Source of the DNA: Flavobacterium frigoris
Lineage (GTDB): Bacteria; Bacteroidota; Bacteroidia; Flavobacteriales; Flavobacteriaceae
Assembly: GCF_900111075.1 (NCBI RefSeq)
Contig: NZ_FOFZ01000015.1
Location: 1-64,000, forward strand
Reading direction: 5' to 3'
Length of the DNA stretch: 64,000 nucleotides
Within the stretch, counting starts at the first letter, position 1. The number at the start of each line of letters is the position of its first letter. Below are positions 1-44,200 of the stretch, piece after piece. Below the pieces are notes generated by a model. The model did no database searches. It was not told the origin of the DNA and saw only the letters and a program-made list of their open reading frames with translations. The position numbers and the translations under genes were made by a program.

Positions 1-396
1 AAAATTTCCACACACCCTCCAATTTTCGGCTCCCTTTAGGGCAGGGGAAAAACGAAAATTTCCACACACCCTCCAATTTTCGGCTCCCTTTAGGGCAGGG
101 GAAAACGAAAATCTTCACACACACCCTCCAATTTTCGGCTCCCTTTAGGTCAGGGGAAAAACGAAAATTTCCACACACCCTCCAATTTTCGGCTCCCTTT
201 AGGGTCGGGGGAAAACGAAAATCTCCGCACACCCTCTAATTTTCGACTCCCTTTAGGGCCGGGGAAAAACGAAAATTTCCACACACCCTCCAATTTTCGA
301 CTCCCTTTAGGGTCGGGGAAAAACGAAAATTTCCACACACCCCAATTTTCGGCTCCCTTTAGTCCCGACGCTTCAAGAGGGGAAAAACGAAAATGT
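1..396. repeat. Array 1: seven ~54-bp hairpin repeats
   Basis: Seven tandem copies of a ~54-bp unit. Each has a spacer ending CACACACCCTCC, a left arm AATTTTCG, a core CTCCCTTTAGGG(T/C)CGGGG plus A-tract, and a right arm CGAAAATT that is the exact reverse complement of the left arm. Cores lie near 28, 82, 138, 190, 246, 300 and 351. The core itself can fold (CCCT-TT-AGGG). The last unit (351-389) has the inner GGG replaced by about 16 bp of foreign sequence. The array starts at the window edge and may extend left. It shares its core, but not its arms, with the arrays at 20399 and 21139. Confidence 0.95.
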
Positions 397-1080: not shown

Positions 1081-1105
1081 TTCCCCCTTCGGGGGCTAGG
1101 GGGAT
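1081..1105. repeat. Solitary core hairpin abutting the rfbC stop codon
   Basis: CCCCC-TTC-GGGGG-CTA-GGGGG at 1083-1103 has the same architecture as the array cores: an inner G/C hairpin followed by a pyrimidine and a second G-run. It ends 2 bp before the rfbC stop codon (1106-1108 on the minus strand), so in gene sense it is the first thing after the stop. It could act as a transcript-end hairpin. Confidence 0.7.
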
Positions 1106-1654
1106 TTAAAACTCCCAGTCAATCCCATCAAATCCTGGCAAAATCAAATCCTTCTCAGAAACAATAACTTCATTAGCATCCACTTGCCAATCAATATTTA
1201 GCGTAACATCATCATAACGGATCCCTCTCTCACTTTCCTTATGATACAACTGATCGACTTTATATAGTACCGACGCCGTTTCACTCAAAACAGAGAAACC
1301 GTGTGCAAACCCGTGAGGCACCATCAATTGTTTTTTATTCTCCGCACTTAGCACCACACTAAAATGTTGTCCGTAAGTAGCTGATTTTTTGCGCAAATCG
1401 ACTGCCACATCCAAAATTTCCCCTTGCAATACACGAACTAACTTAGCCTGAGCAAAAGGATTAATTTGCAAATGCAATCCACGAATCACGCCTCTTTTTG
1501 AAAAAGATTGATTGTCTTGTATGAAATCATACATAATTCCATTCTCATGGAACTTGGCTTGATTATAAGCTTCAAAAAAATAACCGCGTTCGTCTTGGAA
1601 TGCGGTTGGATTGATGATTACTAAATCTTTTATTGTAGTTTTTTCAATGGTCAT
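1106..1654 (-). CDS. rfbC: dTDP-4-dehydrorhamnose 3,5-epimerase
   Basis: RmlC/RfbC cupin of 182 aa, the usual length. It inverts C3 and C5 of dTDP-4-keto-6-deoxyglucose on the way to dTDP-L-rhamnose in the cytoplasm. Visible landmarks are the N-terminal DERGYFFE stretch (21-28), the family GLHLQ motif with catalytic His61, Lys71 in AKLVRV, PHGFAHGF (113-120) and Tyr131. It is the last gene of the polysaccharide operon, 9 bp after the SDR gene. RmlA, RmlB and RmlD are not in the window and must lie elsewhere if the pathway is complete. The start codon is ATG. Confidence 0.96.
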   Translation of the reverse strand: MTIEKTTIKDLVIINPTAFQDERGYFFEAYNQAKFHENGIMYDFIQDNQSFSKRGVIRGLHLQINPFAQAKLVRVLQGEILDVAVDLRKKSATYGQHFSVVLSAENKKQLMVPHGFAHGFSVLSETASVLYKVDQLYHKESERGIRYDDVTLNIDWQVDANEVIVSEKDLILPGFDGIDWEF

Positions 1655-20398: not shown

Positions 20399-20651
20399 CA
20401 AAAATCAGAGCCCTCCCTTTAAACCCAGGAAAAATAAATGATTTTTAAAATACTCTCCCTCCAAAAATCAGATGGCTCCCTTTAGGGTCGGGGAAAAACA
20501 AATGATTTTTCAAACACTCTCGCTCCAAAAATCATTTGACTCCCTTTAGGGTCGGGGAAAAGCAAATGATTTTTAAAATACTCTCCCTCCAAAAATCATT
20601 TGGCTCCCTTTAGGCCCAGGAAAAACAAATGATTTTTAAAATCTTCGAAAA
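20399..20651. repeat. Array 2: four ~63-bp hairpin repeats next to the DUF559 stop
   Basis: Four units with spacer ACTCTCCCTCC, left arm AAAAATCATTTG, core CTCCCTTTAGGGTCGGGG plus A-tract, and right arm CAAATGATTTTT. Arms are perfectly complementary in units 3 and 4; the first two units carry CAGA in place of CATT in the left arm, which breaks pairing. Two units have the core variant CCCTTTAGGCCCAGG or CCCTTTAAACCCAGG. The array ends within a few bases of the stop codon of the nuclease gene at 20652. Confidence 0.93.
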
Positions 20652-21041
20652 TCAGCCTTTACAACATTCTCTAATTTCATCCAACACACATTCTATCTCG
20701 GTGATTACTTGTTCATTTGTAAAACGAATAACCCTTAACCCTTGAAAATTCAAAAAATCAGTTCGTTTTTGATCTTTTTCAATTTGCTCTAAAGCCGAAT
20801 GATACGCGCCATCCACTTCAATGATAAGTTTATGTTGATGACAATAAAAATCTACAATATAGATACCAATTGGGTGCTGTCGTCTAAATTTTAATCCTTG
20901 AAATTGATTTGATTTTAATCGCTCCCATAAAGAGATTTCCGCTTCTGTCATAGTTATCCTTAAAGATTGAGCCTTCAAGAATCCACTAGCACAAGCTCCC
21001 TTCCACATACTATCATCATTTTGCAAATCATTCTTTTTCAT
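20652..21041 (-). CDS. DUF559 endonuclease-domain protein (Vsr-like)
   Basis: 129 aa. The DUF559 domain spans about 28-122: TEAEISLWERL (32-42), KFRRQHPIGIYIVDFYC (51-67), then LIIEVDGAYH (72-81) with Asp64, Glu75 and Asp77 as the candidate PD-(D/E)XK metal ligands, and GLRVIRFTNEQV (101-112). The family is related to the Vsr nicking endonuclease, but its cellular role is not established. It is a stand-alone gene in the polysaccharide locus, with a hairpin-repeat array directly after its stop, a second array upstream and an inverted copy 43 bp before its start. No methylase or toxin partner is visible. Confidence 0.9.
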   Translation of the reverse strand: MKKNDLQNDDSMWKGACASGFLKAQSLRITMTEAEISLWERLKSNQFQGLKFRRQHPIGIYIVDFYCHQHKLIIEVDGAYHSALEQIEKDQKRTDFLNFQGLRVIRFTNEQVITEIECVLDEIRECCKG

Positions 21042-21083
21042 ACCGCTTAATTTAATTCAGTCAAGCTTTTTTTATCATGCCGC

Positions 21084-21121
21084 TTTTCATTTTTTCCCCG
21101 CCCTAAAGGGTGAAATGAAAA
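21084..21121. repeat. Inverted single hairpin-repeat unit with its own arm sequence
   Basis: Read on the minus strand this has the same core (CCCTTTAGGGCGGGG), but the arms are TTTTCATTT (21084-21092) and AAATGAAAA (21113-21121), a third complementary pair unlike those of arrays 1-3. It lies 43 bp upstream of the DUF559 start codon and has the opposite orientation to both adjacent arrays. It may overlap the nuclease promoter or leader. Confidence 0.85.
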
Positions 21122-21138
21122 ACTTTGAACTTAAAAAC

Positions 21139-21503
21139 ACTCTCCCTCCAAAATCATTTGGCTCCCTTTAGGGCCGGGGAAAAACAAATGATTTCCTAAA
21201 ACACTCTCCCTCCAAAATCAGATGGCTCCCTTTAGGCCCAGGAAAAACAAATGATTTTTAAATTACTCTCCCTCCAAAAATCATTTGACTCCCTTTAGGG
21301 TCGGGGAAAAACAAATGATTTTTAAATTACTCTCCCTCCAAAAATCATTTGGCTCCCTTTAGGGTCGGGGAAAAACAAATGATTTCCTAAAACACTCTCC
21401 CTCCAAAAATCATTTGGCTCCCTTTAGGGTTGGGGAAAAACAAATGATTTTTAAAACACTTAACCAAATCTCCCTTTAAACCCAGGAAAAACAAATGATT
21501 TTT
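21139..21503. repeat. Array 3: six hairpin repeats between manC and the DUF559 gene
   Basis: Five good units and one decayed unit of the array-2 type (arms AAATCATTTG and CAAATGATTT, core CTCCCTTTAGGG(T/C)CGGGG). Right arms alternate between TGATTTTTAAA and TGATTTCCTAAA endings. The last unit has lost its left arm (AACCAAATCTCCCTTTAAACC) and runs directly into the manC stop codon at 21504. Unit-to-unit differences are scattered point changes, so the array is not freshly amplified. Confidence 0.93.
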
Positions 21504-22511
21504 CTAATCCAACAACCCTGGATTTTCCCTTTCCAGTTTATTATAAACACTTTTAACATCCTGTGACAATTCTTTTTTCAAAATTAAGTTTGCAGTATCC
21601 GTATAAACAAAAATAGTATCCTTAAGCCCTATGAAAGCAGTATAATTATTAGTCCCAATAACCATATTCCCATTTTTATCCACAGCATGACCTATGGTAA
21701 CTAAATAGTCATATACCGATTCAAAAGAACCCAAATCCGACCAACCAAATTTAGACGAAACAACTTTAATTTTTTTACTGCGTTCCATCACCGCATAATC
21801 AATACTTATAGAAGGAATTTCAAGTGACAAATCCAAAGCTAAATTTCCATTGATATTCGTATCCCAGGTTATTTTTGCTTTTTCATATACTTCAGGATGG
21901 AATGCTTTTAATTCTTCCAGTAACACTCCTGCTTTAAAACAGAACATACCGCTATTCCATAAAAAATTACCTTTCGCAATAAAATCGGTGGCGGTGACTT
22001 GGTTTGGTTTCTCTCGAAAAGAAAGAACAGTATCGCCCCTGCGTTCAATATATCCATATCCCGTTTCTGGCTTAGTGGGAACAATCCCAAAAGTGACAAT
22101 ATATCCTTTTGAAGCTTTTTCAACCGCTTCTTTTATTGCTTCTTCGTAGTGTTCCATTTCTTCAATAATATGATCTGATGGAGTCACAATTAGAATGTCT
22201 TCTGGATTTGAAGCAAAGGCTGCAAAAGCGATAGCGGCAGCAGTATTTCTTGGAGTAGATTCAATAATATCAATATACTCTGTATTCGATTTTTCTAGCA
22301 CTTTCCTGCTCAAATGGCAGTTGTCAATATTACCCACGACCATCACTTTATCCGCAATATTTCTATTTCGCTCGACAGTCATCTCAAACAAAGACTTTCC
22401 ATCAAAAATATCGAGATACTGCTTGGGCTGGCTTTTACGTGATAATGGCCACAACCTACTTCCTACTCCACCGGTAAGAATGACATGTGTAATTGAATTA
22501 TTATTTTCCAT
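21504..22511 (-). CDS. manC: Mannose-1-phosphate guanylyltransferase
   Basis: 335 aa. LTGGVGSRLWPLSR (12-25) and QPKQY (28-32, with the pyrophosphorylase lysine) are the GMP/GDP-mannose pyrophosphorylase signature; IIESTPRNTAAAIAFAA, VTPSDH and FGWSDLGSFESVYD follow. It makes GDP-mannose from mannose-1-P and GTP. Only the nucleotidyltransferase domain is present, without a C-terminal phosphomannose isomerase, as is common in Bacteroidota. GDP-mannose may feed the polymer directly or via GDP-fucose; no such genes are here. The stop codon touches repeat array 3. Confidence 0.95.
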   Translation of the reverse strand: MENNNSITHVILTGGVGSRLWPLSRKSQPKQYLDIFDGKSLFEMTVERNRNIADKVMVVGNIDNCHLSRKVLEKSNTEYIDIIESTPRNTAAAIAFAAFASNPEDILIVTPSDHIIEEMEHYEEAIKEAVEKASKGYIVTFGIVPTKPETGYGYIERRGDTVLSFREKPNQVTATDFIAKGNFLWNSGMFCFKAGVLLEELKAFHPEVYEKAKITWDTNINGNLALDLSLEIPSISIDYAVMERSKKIKVVSSKFGWSDLGSFESVYDYLVTIGHAVDKNGNMVIGTNNYTAFIGLKDTIFVYTDTANLILKKELSQDVKSVYNKLERENPGLLD

Positions 22512-22745: not shown

Positions 22746-22747
22746 AG

Positions 22748-22780
22748 CCTCCCTCTCCTTAAGAGAGAGCTGGGGTGAGG
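22748..22780. repeat. Solitary hairpin element abutting a stop codon and a truncated gene
   Basis: CCTCCCTCTCCTTAAGAGAG followed by AGCTGGGGTGAGG: an inner CTCTCCTTAAGAGAG hairpin, then a GGGG run. It has the same layout as the array cores. Its right end is 3 bp from the stop of the UDP-sugar dehydrogenase (22784), and its left end is the breakpoint of the cytidylyltransferase remnant. Confidence 0.8.
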
Positions 22781-22783
22781 AAT

Positions 22784-24067
22784 TTACAATCTCCCGTCTA
22801 CCGGATCTCCTAAAACGCCTTTCACATCATACAACACACTTTTTGTGTTCTGCAATTGTGAAAAATCCAAGTTCAAAAATGCGGCGTGTGCCACACCAAG
22901 AACGACCGCATCAAATTTTTGATGGGGTAAAACAGCAGTAGTAACCAAATTATATTCGTGATTCACCGCAGCTGGATTGGCTAAAGGATCATAAATAGTT
23001 ACTGTAATCCCATAATCGGTTAATGCGGCGATGACATCTACAATTTTAGTATTGCGAACATCGGGACAGTTCTCTTTGAAAGTAATACCAAGCATCAACA
23101 ACGTAGCCCCATTAACCGAAATTCCCTTTTTAATCATCAGCTTCACGATTTGAGAAGCAACATAGTCTCCCATACTGTCATTCAATCGCCTTCCCGCCAA
23201 GATAATTTCAGGATGATATCCTAATTCTTGTGCTTTCTGAGCTAAATAATAAGGATCAACTCCTATACAATGTCCTCCAACCAATCCCGGTTTAAAAGGC
23301 AAAAAATTCCATTTGGTTCCAGCCGCATCTAAAACGGCTTGCGTATCAATATTCATTAAGTTGAATATTTTTGCCAATTCATTTACAAAAGCAATATTAA
23401 TATCACGTTGTGAGTTCTCGATTACTTTGGCCGCTTCGGCTACCTTAATCGAAGGCGCCAGATAAGTACCAGCCGTAATCACGCTTTGATACAATTCGTT
23501 TATCTTTCGTCCTATTTCTGGAGTAGAACCAGAAGTGACTTTTAAAATTTTATCAACGGTATGTTCCTTATCTCCTGGATTAATTCGCTCAGGCGAATAA
23601 CCCGCAAAAAAATCAATGTTGAACTTTAAACCTGAAACTCTTTCCAAAACGGGTACACATTCCTCTTCCGTAACTCCGGGGTATACCGTGGATTCATAGA
23701 TAACAACATCTCCTTTTTTAAGAACCTTCCCTATCGTTTCAGATGATTTATACAAAGGGGTCAAATCAGGACGATTGTTTTTATCCACTGGCGTAGGAAC
23801 CGTTACAATGTAATAATTACAGTCGGCAATATCGACAATATGGTTTGTGCAATACAAACCGTTAGCATGCCCTTGCTTTTCAACTAATACTTTTTGCAAC
23901 GTTGCAGTATCAATTTCGAGAGTAGCATCAACACCTGATTTTAATTCTGCTACTCGAGACTCATTAATATCAAATCCCACTACAGCATGTTTTGTAGCAA
24001 ACAACCTAGCTAAGGGCAAACCAACGTAACCAAGACCTACAATTGCAATCTTCGAATTCAAGTCCAT
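22784..24067 (-). CDS. UDP-N-acetyl-hexosamine 6-dehydrogenase (TviB/WbpA type)
   Basis: 427 aa, UDP-glucose/GDP-mannose dehydrogenase superfamily. The NAD site GLGYVGLPLA is at 11-20, SPERINPGD at 158-166, the catalytic Cys267 in GGHCIGVDPYYLA, and TFKENCPDVRNTKI in the C-terminal domain. It oxidises C6 of UDP-GlcNAc or UDP-GalNAc twice to the uronic acid. With the TviC-like epimerase at 27592 it would give UDP-GalNAcA as in the Vi-antigen pathway. A TAnnTTTG-like box lies at 24169-24176, without a clear -33. Confidence 0.92.
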   Translation of the reverse strand: MDLNSKIAIVGLGYVGLPLARLFATKHAVVGFDINESRVAELKSGVDATLEIDTATLQKVLVEKQGHANGLYCTNHIVDIADCNYYIVTVPTPVDKNNRPDLTPLYKSSETIGKVLKKGDVVIYESTVYPGVTEEECVPVLERVSGLKFNIDFFAGYSPERINPGDKEHTVDKILKVTSGSTPEIGRKINELYQSVITAGTYLAPSIKVAEAAKVIENSQRDINIAFVNELAKIFNLMNIDTQAVLDAAGTKWNFLPFKPGLVGGHCIGVDPYYLAQKAQELGYHPEIILAGRRLNDSMGDYVASQIVKLMIKKGISVNGATLLMLGITFKENCPDVRNTKIVDVIAALTDYGITVTIYDPLANPAAVNHEYNLVTTAVLPHQKFDAVVLGVAHAAFLNLDFSQLQNTKSVLYDVKGVLGDPVDGRL

Positions 24068-25182: not shown

Positions 25183-25762
25183 TTGCCTTGTGTTGAAATA
25201 ACATCTTGTTGTTATTCCTTTATTTTATATAAATATCTATTTGTTGTTCCCTAATTGTTTTTAATCTCGAATTACACAAACCCATGTATTATTAGAGCTA
25301 CTCGACTGACCCCATGACCGTTTTAATCGAAAAGTAGTAAAATAATATTTAAACAACTTTCAGTACCGATTGTATTTTTATTATACTAGTACGCTTTCAC
25401 TTCTTTAGCTCAATTATTTTTATTTTAAGCGGTATTCGCTAAAACTCCAATTTGTCATGATCAAAAAAGAAATACCGGAATGCGTAGTAATAAAAAGTAA
25501 AATACCTTGGCATAACCATCAAATATTCCTGTTTTTAAAATTATTTTTTTGGTAATAATTAATCTTCGATTTCACTGTCTGATCCCGATAGCTATTGGGC
25601 GTTTCGCGAAGTTTTTATAAAATAGCGAAAGCATTTTTATAAAAATATTTCGAGAACCACAACCGAAAACAAATTTTATCAGCCATCTAACTTGTACAAA
25701 TTTATTTAATAAACAAACTTCGCTTAGTCTCCCTCTCCTTTGGAGAGGGCCGGGGTGAGGAC
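25183..25762. other. Leader region of the UpxY gene with palindromic debris
   Basis: No gene. It contains the AATAACA/TGTTATT hairpin before the UpxY start, a CCCGATAGCTATTGGG palindrome near 25585, adjacent copies of a TTTTTATAAAA motif (about 25613-25646), and a hairpin element against the next stop codon (25729-25760). A recognisable TAnnTTTG promoter for UpxY was not found. Confidence 0.6.
25729..25760. repeat. Solitary hairpin element abutting the ugd stop codon
   Basis: CTCCCTCTCCTTTGGAGAGG followed by GCCGGGGTGAGG. The inner CCCTCTCC-TTT-GGAGAGGG hairpin is perfect, then comes CCGGGG. It ends 2 bp from the UDP-glucose dehydrogenase stop codon, in the same orientation as the elements at 1081 and 22748 relative to their genes. 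Short flanks AGTC and GACT could extend the pairing. Confidence 0.85.
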
Positions 25763-27154
25763 TTAAGAACCGATACCTTGATAAACAAATCCTATTTCCT
25801 TAAGAGCAGAACCATTCAATATATTTCTTCCGTCAAAAACAAAAGCAGGCTTTTGCATGGAATCATAAATTCGTTGCCAATCATATTGAACAAACTCATC
25901 CCATTCCGTAAGGACCGCTATTGCGTGTGCGCCTTCACAAGTTTCATAAGGATCTTCAAATGACAGAATGCTGTTGGCATTTTTTTCTGCCGTTCTGGTT
26001 TCTAAATAATCCAAATCAGCCAAAATTTTCTTTCTGGACACTTTAGGATCATAAACGGCAATTTTTGCGTTTTCATTTATTAGATCGTCCGCCACATAAA
26101 TAGCTGCAGATTCTCTAGTATCGTTGGTGTCTTTCTTGAAAGCCCAACCTAAGAAACATATTTTTTTATCAGAAACGGTATTATAAAGTGTTTGCACAAT
26201 AGTATTTGAGAAACGTCTTTTTTGATGATCGTTCATGATAATAACCTGCTCCCAATAATCAGCTACTTCGCTCAATCCATAGGATTTAGCAATGTAAACC
26301 AAATTCAAAATGTCTTTTTGGAAACAAGAGCCTCCAAATCCTACTGATGCCTTAAGGAATTTTGATCCTATTCTGCTGTCCATTCCTATCGCTTTTGCCA
26401 CCTCATTCACATCAGCACCCGTTTTTTCACAAAGCTCAGACATGGCATTGATAGAAGAGATTCTTTGCGCCAAAAATGCGTTAGCAGTCAACTTTGATAA
26501 CTCAGACGACCACAAATTAGTAGTTAATATTTTATCGGCTGCAACCCAATTGGCGTAAACAGCAACAAGAGCTTGTATCGCTTTTTGTCCGTCTTCAGTA
26601 GTATCTCCACCTATTAATATTCGATCCGGATTCAATAAATCCTGAACTGCTGTTCCTTCAGCAAGAAACTCTGGATTAGATAAAATTTGAAATTGTACGC
26701 CATTACCGGTATTGTCCAAAATACTTTTAATGGCTTCGGCAGTTCGTACCGGTAGCGTTGATTTCTCTACCACTATTTTATTATCCTTGGCTATTTTAGC
26801 AATTTGTCTGGCGCACAACTCGATGTATTTTAAATCCGCTGCCATACCTTTCCCTTTACCATACGTTTTAGTAGGCGTATTAACCGAGATAAAAATAATC
26901 TGAGCTTCATCGATTGCTTTTTCAACATGGGTAGAAAAGAATAAATTTCTGCCTCTGGCTTCTCCAACAATTTTATCTAATCCCGGTTCGTAAATAGGGA
27001 TATTATCTAAATTTTCGTCATTCCAAGCCGCAATTCGTTCTTCATTTAAGTCAACAACAGTAACCTGGATCTGCGGACATTTTTGTGCTATAACTGCCAT
27101 AGTAGGTCCACCTACGTATCCAGCCCCAATGCAACAAATTTTTGTAATTTTCAT
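25763..27154 (-). CDS. ugd: UDP-glucose 6-dehydrogenase
   Basis: 463 aa, the longer eukaryote-like class of [16 protein letters not shown] (8-20) is the NAD site, [11 protein letters not shown] (53-63) is class-typical, and Cys277 in [10 protein letters not shown] is the catalytic nucleophile. It converts UDP-glucose to UDP-glucuronate in the cytoplasm. It belongs to a different subfamily from the TviB-like enzyme at 22784, so the locus can make two kinds of uronic acid. A 437-bp palindromic gap separates it from the epimerase upstream. Confidence 0.96.
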
Positions 27155-44147: not shown

Positions 44148-44200
44148 AGGTAGAGATTATGAATTCAGGTCATATCCTTCGATAATCGTTTATTCTACCT
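44148..44200 (-). ncRNA. Candidate S4 leader: three-tier hairpin before rpsD
   Basis: In the rpsK-rpsD gap the minus-strand RNA can pair AGGTAGA with TCTACCT (outer, 7 bp), GATTAT with ATAATC (middle, 6 bp) and AGG with CCT (inner), separated by a 6-nt bulge and a 3x6 internal loop. The structure ends 18 bp before the rpsD ATG. The ordered nesting in the only long gap of this segment suggests an r-protein regulatory RNA. I recall S4 leader candidates having been proposed for Bacteroidia, but cannot confirm this is the same motif. Confidence 0.6.

Follow-up and report, generated by a model that had tools for sequence, protein, structure and literature searches.

The stretch of DNA analysed here (hereafter the window) spans 64,000 nucleotides of one contig (C33) of the Flavobacterium frigoris genome, an assembly of 4.05 Mb in 63 contigs. 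It contains three tandem arrays and one inverted unit, all sharing a common core, CTCCCTTTAGGG(Y)(C)GGGG, and differing in the arms that flank it. Array 1 (1..396, + strand) begins at the very start of the contig and repeats with a period of 54 bp; it comprises six CTCCCTTTAGG cores (at 30, 84, 139, 193, 247 and 301), a degenerate core at 353, and the arms AATTTTCG/CGAAAATT. The two remaining arrays, both on the + strand, with a 64-bp period and the arms AAATCATTTG/CAAATGATTT, enclose a gene on the − strand (20652..21041) encoding a protein of 129 amino acids from the DUF559 family (Pfam E 1.2e-37). Array 2 (20413..20642; cores at 20476, 20540 and 20604, degenerate core at 20413) is located downstream of this gene and has a mismatched left arm at 20476; array 3 (21134..21508; cores at 21162, 21226, 21289, 21353 and 21418, degenerate core at 21470) is located upstream and has a mismatched left arm at 21226. 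The inverted single unit (21082..21122, − strand; arms TTTTCATTT/AAATGAAAA, core CACCCTTTAGGGCGGGG) is oriented opposite to arrays 2 and 3. The three arm types, of array 1, of arrays 2 and 3, and of the inverted unit, are just as described in a sequence-only reading of this DNA, which placed them all at positions 1–396, a segment covering array 1 only. The DUF559 gene was not mentioned in that reading.

The arrays are intergenic, and a search with the core pattern allowing up to three mismatches yielded 15 matches in the window as opposed to none in 100 shuffles. The core can be written as CTCCC-TTTA-GGG-YY-GGGG, i.e. with blocks of 5, 3 and 4 nt. The sequence-only reading considered it nearly fixed, which is true of the core overall and too strong for some copies: array 1 reads GGGCAGGGG, the units at 20604 and 21226 read GGCCCAGGA, and array 1 closes with a degenerate unit at 353. 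Imperfect arms, ATCAGATG/CAAATGAT, are seen in the units at 20476 and 21226, whose two arms belong to different families, as if recombined across the core. When folded as single-stranded DNA, a unit of array 1 is barely better than its shuffles (z −1.25, 26 of 200 shuffles being as good), and three other units give z values of −3.64, −2.23 and −2.58. The window further includes a solo hairpin of another type (1083..1106, + strand), CCCCCTTCGGGGGCTAGGGGG, consisting of a C-block, a G-block, CTA and a second G-block; ends like this one flank DUF559 genes in other genomes of the genus. Two solo triplex-type repeats are found on the + strand at 22746..22789 (CTCCCTCTCCTTAAGAGAGAGCTGGGGTGAGG) and 25726..25769 (CTCCCTCTCCTTTGGAGAGGGCCGGGGTGAGG). 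The only Rfam match in the window at the gathering threshold is an S4-Flavobacteria ribosomal protein leader (RF03141) at 44155-44187 on the − strand.

Counting exact matches only, the 11-mer CTCCCTTTAGG occurs in 42 copies genome-wide (41 forward and one reverse; the reversed control pattern gave 0), and all of them are confined to C31:31168-65654, which is the end of that contig, and C33:1-21435. Provided that the two contigs abut, the exact cores span about 56 kb, or 1.4% of the genome, which speaks against free dispersal. The end of C31 and the start of C33 both lie inside the same 54-bp array, and it was probably array 1 that broke the assembly (at window position 1 and C31:65654), between genes that appear rmlD-like and rmlC-like by eye.

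The core is present in 11 genomes, namely the genome under study (G000) and others retrieved by a search for its relatives. As in the window, the core and a DUF559 gene occur at one place in G010, G030, G019 and G025, and a locus from G211 (L126) represents a sixth case. No DUF559 gene was found beside the core in six of the 11 core-bearing genomes (G003, G005, G007, G017, G036 and G052); such cores would be non-autonomous remains. Up to 10 tandem copies stand in a row in G030, and REPIN-like inverted pairs are seen as well. The DUF559 gene and the arrays sit at the same place in G010 (L068:7823-11508) and G030 (L069:7716-12648), between a gene that looks MBOAT-like by eye and the same downstream gene, so the insertion seems to be common to both. 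The core also occurs in two viral contigs.

The sequence-only reading pointed to a comparison of the flanks with shuffled ones, and to the alternative that most genomic cores lack complementary flanks. What the comparison revealed is the opposite: a stem score of at least 7 is reached by 101 of 124 core copies from the 11 genomes and by 2.0% of shuffled flanks (four of the eight G052 places were used, and G211 was left out and inspected afterwards). Among unique copies, 91 of 112 attain this score, compared with 12.6% when left flanks are matched with right flanks of another arm family. When arms differing at three or more of eight positions are assigned to separate families, 12 families emerge, whose own stems score 8–16 (mean 10.8); cross-pairing the same families lowers the mean to 4.9 and leaves 16.7% with a stem of at least 7. 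Covariation is evident in 32 distinct arm pairs, selected for a stem score of at least 7, counted by a script and varying in arm length: each of the eight positions exhibits three to four Watson-Crick types, and 95.7% of the cells pair, as opposed to a mean of 58.2% and a maximum of 68.4% in 500 trials with the right arms re-dealt. Arms containing G and C pair as well (ATCAGATG, CTTTTTCC, ATTTTCGG).

The notion that it is the fold rather than the arm sequence that is kept is supported by the number of pair types per position, by the excess of pairing over re-dealt arms and by the low cross-family scores. As a strict rule it does not hold, since 23 of the 124 copies fall below the threshold. 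Hybrids are among them, such as the units at C31:62323 and C31:63762, which combine an ATTTTC-type left arm with the right arm GTAAATGATT; this is what recombination across the core would make. In G211, whose DUF559 protein belongs to the same clade as that of the window, all four '+' units are armed with ATTTCTCCTTTT/AAAAGGAGAAAT, and the three '−' units scored all have no complementary arms. The hybrid arms and these arm-less units together mean that pairing is not absolute. The other possibility raised, that each new copy gains matching arms as it arises, is disfavoured by the single case examined: the units at C31:53014 and C31:58019 have identical arms, and the sequences outside them are alike at no more than 10 of 46 and 8 of 43 positions, i.e. 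at about the level of chance, so the arms were carried along with the unit.

The DUF559 protein encoded between arrays 2 and 3 is a predicted nuclease of the Vsr/EDxHD type and a candidate for the nuclease acting on the repeats. A structure model built from an alignment of 29 sequences reached a pLDDT of 87.8 (49.6 when a single sequence was used). Compared with PDB entries, with Foldseek used as an additional means of seeking structural matches, the model resembles the DUF559 crystal structure 3hrl (Z 16.0), the homing endonuclease I-Bth0305I (3r3p, Z 11.6) and Vsr (1cw0, Z 9.8). Residues invariant in the 29 sequences include E35, D64, E75, D77, H81, D90 and R93; of the conserved acidic and histidine residues, E75, D77 and H81 are the presumed catalytic ones. 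Another member of the family, YcjD, has been counted among the PD-(D/E)XK superfamily (PMC1189080). Cargo carried by phages or plasmids was considered and set aside: relatives of the protein are present in three of 50,697 phage records and 41 of 72,556 plasmid records, and the viral contigs with the core number two.

For a broader view of DUF559 genes and their surroundings we assembled two sets of loci. DUF559 was detected in 170 of 296 Bacteroidota genomes, and the Bacteroidota set of 116 loci consists of 27 from the relatives search (30 minus the weak partial L097–L099) and the 89 best-scoring ones from the 296 genomes, taken by E-value and passing over one row with an inner stop (G350) and rows already present. 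The second set comprises the best 80 of at least 573 confirmed genome-contig matches, coming from Chloroflexota, Pseudomonadota, Thermodesulfobacteriota, Cyanobacteriota and other phyla, some of them Bacteroidota; 73 of the 80 have full 250-bp flanks. Six of the 116 Bacteroidota loci and none of the 80 genome-contig loci have the exact core CTCCCTTTAGGG no more than 500 bp from DUF559. All six fall into one supported clade of seven rows (99/90) in a maximum-likelihood tree, which was inferred from 107 columns and whose bootstrap had not settled. The seventh row (L170) has the close core variants CCCCCTTCAGGGGG and CCCCCTTTAGGGG at its ends. This locus (L170:424-1593), where DUF559 is in frame with the N-terminus of HisF and the hairpins CCCCCTTTAGGGGTCGGGG come near the window core, is the sister of the window DUF559 (94/75). 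Dealing six labels randomly over the 116 loci gives p 2.4e-9, a value in which neither relatedness nor the prior noticing of the six is taken into account. The association of core and clade, in six loci that come from one genus and were noticed before the tree was made, may reflect common descent. A plain form of the arrangement is found in G025 (L082), where a AATTTTCG hairpin in '−' orientation lies 116 bp upstream of the gene and a TTCTTTTTTC hairpin in '+' orientation 63 bp downstream; the array units in the window do not make up such a simple pair of inverted ends round the DUF559 gene.

Hairpins of a related design accompany DUF559 genes far beyond this clade. We defined a strict motif (a pyrimidine stem, a loop, a complementary G-block and a second G-run) and looked for it within 250 bp on either side of the domain. 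Both flanks carry this C/G/G hairpin in 68 of 113 Bacteroidota loci, 53 of 73 genome-contig loci and none of 30 HU control genes; at least one flank does so in 98 of 113, 66 of 73 and 0 of 30, respectively. Ends oriented '−' upstream and '+' downstream characterize 55 of 113 Bacteroidota loci, compared with three of 565 first-order Markov shuffles and with one to seven of the 112–114 loci in single far windows; the corresponding figures for the genome-contig set are 45 of 73 and, in far windows, 0 of 64. The far windows are mostly coding, so the HU genes (Bacteroidota loci only) and the in-frame class of DUF559 loci, dealt with below, provide fairer comparisons. Oriented ends on both sides occur in 32 of 45 in-frame and in only 23 of 68 freestanding Bacteroidota loci, and in 16 of 21 in-frame and 29 of 52 freestanding genome-contig loci. 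A motif-free inverted-repeat score exceeds the far-window maximum in 72 of 113 and 56 of 73 loci, respectively, and several loci missed by the motif display other palindromes on both sides when inspected by eye. Both ends were found in 94 of 196 elements, and the similarity between left and right ends is higher within an element (0.63) than across elements (0.42). The similarity of the proteins correlates with that of the end repeats (Mantel r 0.246, 0 of 1000 permutations), and common descent of whole elements suffices to account for both this correlation and the matching of the ends. In a narrow test of CGTC-tagged repeats (REP or Rickettsia type) as DUF559 ends, three 11-mers of the CGTC type gave no match within 300 bp of any of the 116 DUF559 loci and one in a far window.

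In many cases the DUF559 domain is not a protein of its own. Its reading frame continues for more than 60 residues in 45 of the 116 Bacteroidota and 23 of the 80 genome-contig loci, and in 43 and 16 of these, respectively, it also extends more than 60 residues before the domain. All 16 frames run through Pfam, hand-chosen from the 68, hold other domains. The hosts are a UvrD-type helicase (AddA-like), leucyl-tRNA synthetase (twice), cobalamin methionine synthase (MetH), RecG, HsdM, two HsdR-type proteins, an Eco57I-type methylase, HisF and RimM (with DUF559 N-terminal), methylmalonyl-CoA mutase, an apparently HrpB-like helicase, methionyl-tRNA synthetase, PriA and a DUF1156 protein. In translation the hairpins become linkers, for instance PSPSGRVGEG and APPSGAGGA, and no splicing (Hint) domain is among the Pfam matches (E 1e-6) in these 16 frames, several of which are cut by the locus ends. 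One leucyl-tRNA synthetase frame (L104 and L090, G016:C58:27550-28752) houses two DUF559 insertions, each with its own flanking hairpins.

The UvrD-type helicase offers a view of occupied and empty sites. Anchors bracketing the site, found in 11 of 27 loci and not in the locus of the F. frigoris genome itself (L036), whose helicase is likewise split by an insertion, are separated by 87 bp in seven insertion-free relatives and by 573–675 bp in the carriers G036, G007 and G029. The insertion ends read TTCCTCCCC...GGGGAGGGGAA, with the change falling between ...AAGTTCCT and AATGC...; owing to differences in a few codons, the exact base of the joint is not defined. The empty site of G019 (L286, G019:C1, ~673553-673939) measures 96 bp between the anchors, its nine extra bases forming a mini C/G hairpin (LSPNLAKGGG) that is perhaps the scar of a lost element. 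The in-frame DUF559 domains of MetH, leucyl-tRNA synthetase, the helicase, methylmalonyl-CoA mutase and RecG belong to one clade of 34 rows (100/96), four of which are freestanding, and the host labels change within it. Over all groups, 14 changes of host label are needed, the least possible being nine; we read these changes as putative movement between host genes, with the count possibly inflated by losses.

Repeats of the C/G/G design have been described before as intrastrand triplex motifs (TM) or PIT elements, and the E. coli representatives (TM_ECO, PMC4666352) share with the window core the succession of a C-block, a loop, a G-block, 2–3 nt and a second G-block. TM_ECO repeats are intergenic and variable between strains. 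One of the 23 copies, no. 9 of Table 1 (1,351,239-1,351,204), is placed 168 bp downstream of the DUF559 gene ycjD (1,351,407-1,351,760) and oriented like a right end. For 23 copies spread over 4.64 Mb, chance would put about 0.004 within 250 bp of a single gene of this kind. The window core differs in that its blocks of 5, 3 and 4 nt are shorter than the 9 nt of TM_ECO and the minimum of 6 used in that paper's search, and that its units have long variable arms and are tandem and local rather than dispersed; the solo repeats at 22746 and 25726 come much nearer to the block-length criterion. The authors of PMC4666352 report that they never found mobility-giving activities or a mobility gene near TM_ECO sites, the role for which DUF559 is proposed here.

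Among 5426 E. coli genomes, 3333 contain at least 80% of the ycjD region; in our family search no DUF559 match came from the E. coli control genome. One strain without ycjD (L276, NZ_CP172336.1) has genes for a TetR-type regulator and RND efflux on the fabI side; the one ycjD-less region examined thus contains other genes and no clean empty site. The alx-sstT locus of E. coli proved too rearranged to be read as a simple insertion. A TM doublet between hrpB and mrcB (L278, L280, L281 and L282) is missing, with a nearly clean site, from two of three aligned strains, which were chosen for their shorter matches; the third has lost only the inner part and retains one hairpin. Of five doublets examined in Table 1 of PMC4666352, four have their G-blocks pointing inward, opposite to the DUF559 ends, and nos. 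17/18 outward.

Other known systems invite comparison as well. Inteins are in-frame insertions in essential genes that splice themselves out; the DUF559 elements resemble them in inserting in frame into essential genes and differ in having no splicing domain in the Pfam matches of the 16 host frames. The palindromic elements of Rickettsia sit in frame inside protein genes. The in-frame DUF559 elements do the same and, unlike them, encode a nuclease, whereas the window arrays are intergenic. These Rickettsia elements are touched on in PMC3733652. The fold of the DUF559 model is like that of I-Bth0305I and Vsr (PDB 3r3p, 1cw0, 1vsr), and DUF559 genes are set apart by the hairpin repeats that flank them; the resemblance to homing endonucleases, with their recurring sites in conserved genes, amounts here to recurring and empty sites only. 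REP/REPIN repeats with their RAYT partners (REPtrons; PMC3733652, PMC6006769) are short palindromes forming inverted pairs with a family-specific partner gene flanked by its own repeats, all of which recalls the present case. They differ in the partner, which here is DUF559 with a Vsr/PD-(D/E)XK-type fold instead of an HUH Y1 transposase, and in the constant GTAG tag, which the units studied here do not have.

The explanation that we consider probable is that each repeat unit is the end hairpin of a small element, probably mobile, with its own DUF559 nuclease gene, and that the arrays are multiplied ends. Such an element would be built of an inverted left-end hairpin, the nuclease gene and a right-end hairpin, and the window core would be a short form of the general C-block/G-block/G-block end of DUF559 elements, with the arms supplying the stem that bears it. 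What the DUF559 protein recognises would most likely be the folded end, i.e. the core sequence plus any paired stem; by nicking or cutting there it might set off the copying or relocation of the element, probably while replication leaves the strand single. If only the pairing of the stem matters, the arms would drift by compensatory change and the core would be held by the nuclease; recognition of shape plus core would thus explain both the constant core and the covarying arms. Tandem arrays and solo units would be non-autonomous ends that slippage and recombination between cores have multiplied in the neighbourhood of the gene; recombination would also yield the units with hybrid arms. In related lineages whole elements do lie in frame within host genes. 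Hairpin cleavage, the single-stranded intermediate and movement driven by DUF559 are steps that we infer from the arrangement of the sequences. Counting against the explanation are the small share of freestanding Bacteroidota loci with both oriented ends, the arrangement of the window units, which is no simple inverted pair round the gene, the six core-bearing genomes where no DUF559 gene was found next to the core, the confinement of the exact cores to about 56 kb if C31 and C33 abut, the arm-less '−' units of G211, the four inward-facing doublets of E. coli and the repair role ascribed to a DUF559 protein of Caulobacter.

The main rival, which we regard as unlikely, sees DUF559 as a passenger or as a repair enzyme resembling Vsr, and holds that the repeats multiply by host slippage, template switching and recombination, with the gene caught between them. 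The local clustering of the cores would fit, tandem arrays and hybrid arms require no transposase, and in PMC12907096 a DUF559 protein of Caulobacter, named VsrA, is tied to the DNA damage response at unmethylated sites and to mismatch-type repair, not to mobility. Several findings count against this view, though they leave it some probability: the core goes with a single DUF559 clade, the two ends of an element match, hairpins flank DUF559 genes across phyla and none of 30 HU genes, one in-frame element has empty sites in relatives, and a single DUF559 clade recurs in several host genes. Stem covariation and the intergenic position among genes that look polysaccharide-like by eye could also mean that the units are RNA hairpins of polysaccharide clusters (terminators, attenuators or mRNA stabilisers), with covariation keeping an RNA stem. 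This appears improbable given that the long reading frames next to arrays 2 and 3 run on the other strand, that as many as 10 copies are strung together in G030, that relatives of the hairpins are translated inside proteins and that no Rfam match is found at the arrays at gathering thresholds. In addition, earlier work cited in PMC4666352, the paper on TM_ECO, found no promoter or terminator activity. An RNA leader or terminator was discarded as a candidate, the sole Rfam match of the window being unrelated to the arrays.

Still less probable is that the units are plain REP/REPIN elements mobilised by a Y1 (RAYT) transposase from another part of the genome. Inverted pairs of the REPIN kind do exist, and the genome has five Y1_Tnp matches, but these are on C22 (two), C16, C13 and C17 and none is on C31 or C33, home of all exact cores; moreover, no more than four of the 101 stemmed copies have GTAG (or CTAC on the other side) at a distance of up to 8 nt from the stem foot. 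Chance complementarity of AT-rich flanks, finally, can be given practically no weight: the arms are indeed AT-rich and flanks combined across families do sometimes pair (the 12.6% noted above), yet the observed 101 of 124 far exceeds the shuffled level and arms with G and C pair too. The tests with shuffled flanks, cross-family pairing and covariation together refute it.

Returning to the element with hairpin ends, we may ask how far it reaches beyond Flavobacterium. We are somewhat more inclined to doubt than to accept a wider proposal, and make it tentatively: DUF559 genes with paired C/G/G ends may constitute an unrecognised bacteria-wide class of mobile elements, in which a Vsr-fold nuclease would read folded, possibly triplex ends, and which could be the source of the TM/PIT repeats including those of E. 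coli. Members of this class would insert in frame and remain unspliced in leucyl-tRNA synthetase, MetH, RecG, PriA and methylmalonyl-CoA mutase, with the hairpin ends serving as linkers, and the arms in the window would illustrate the recognition of shape plus core. No link of DUF559 to repeats in general or to triplex repeats in particular was seen in the titles and abstract openings of the papers listed by searches of the open-licence PMC literature, and the link to triplex-type repeats across bacteria has a real chance of representing a new class of elements.

A nuclease family that lies between repeats, is paired with its own repeat type and occurs in frame in essential proteins makes the origin of triplex repeats directly testable. 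The covariation of the arms amounts to a natural mutagenesis experiment, telling apart what in the end is recognised by its sequence and what by its shape. If the proposal is true, it would add a second partnership of a nuclease with repeats beside REP/RAYT, provide a function for DUF559, a family still named as being 'of unknown function', and serve as a warning that an inserted nuclease is hidden in some of the bacterial proteins annotated so far.
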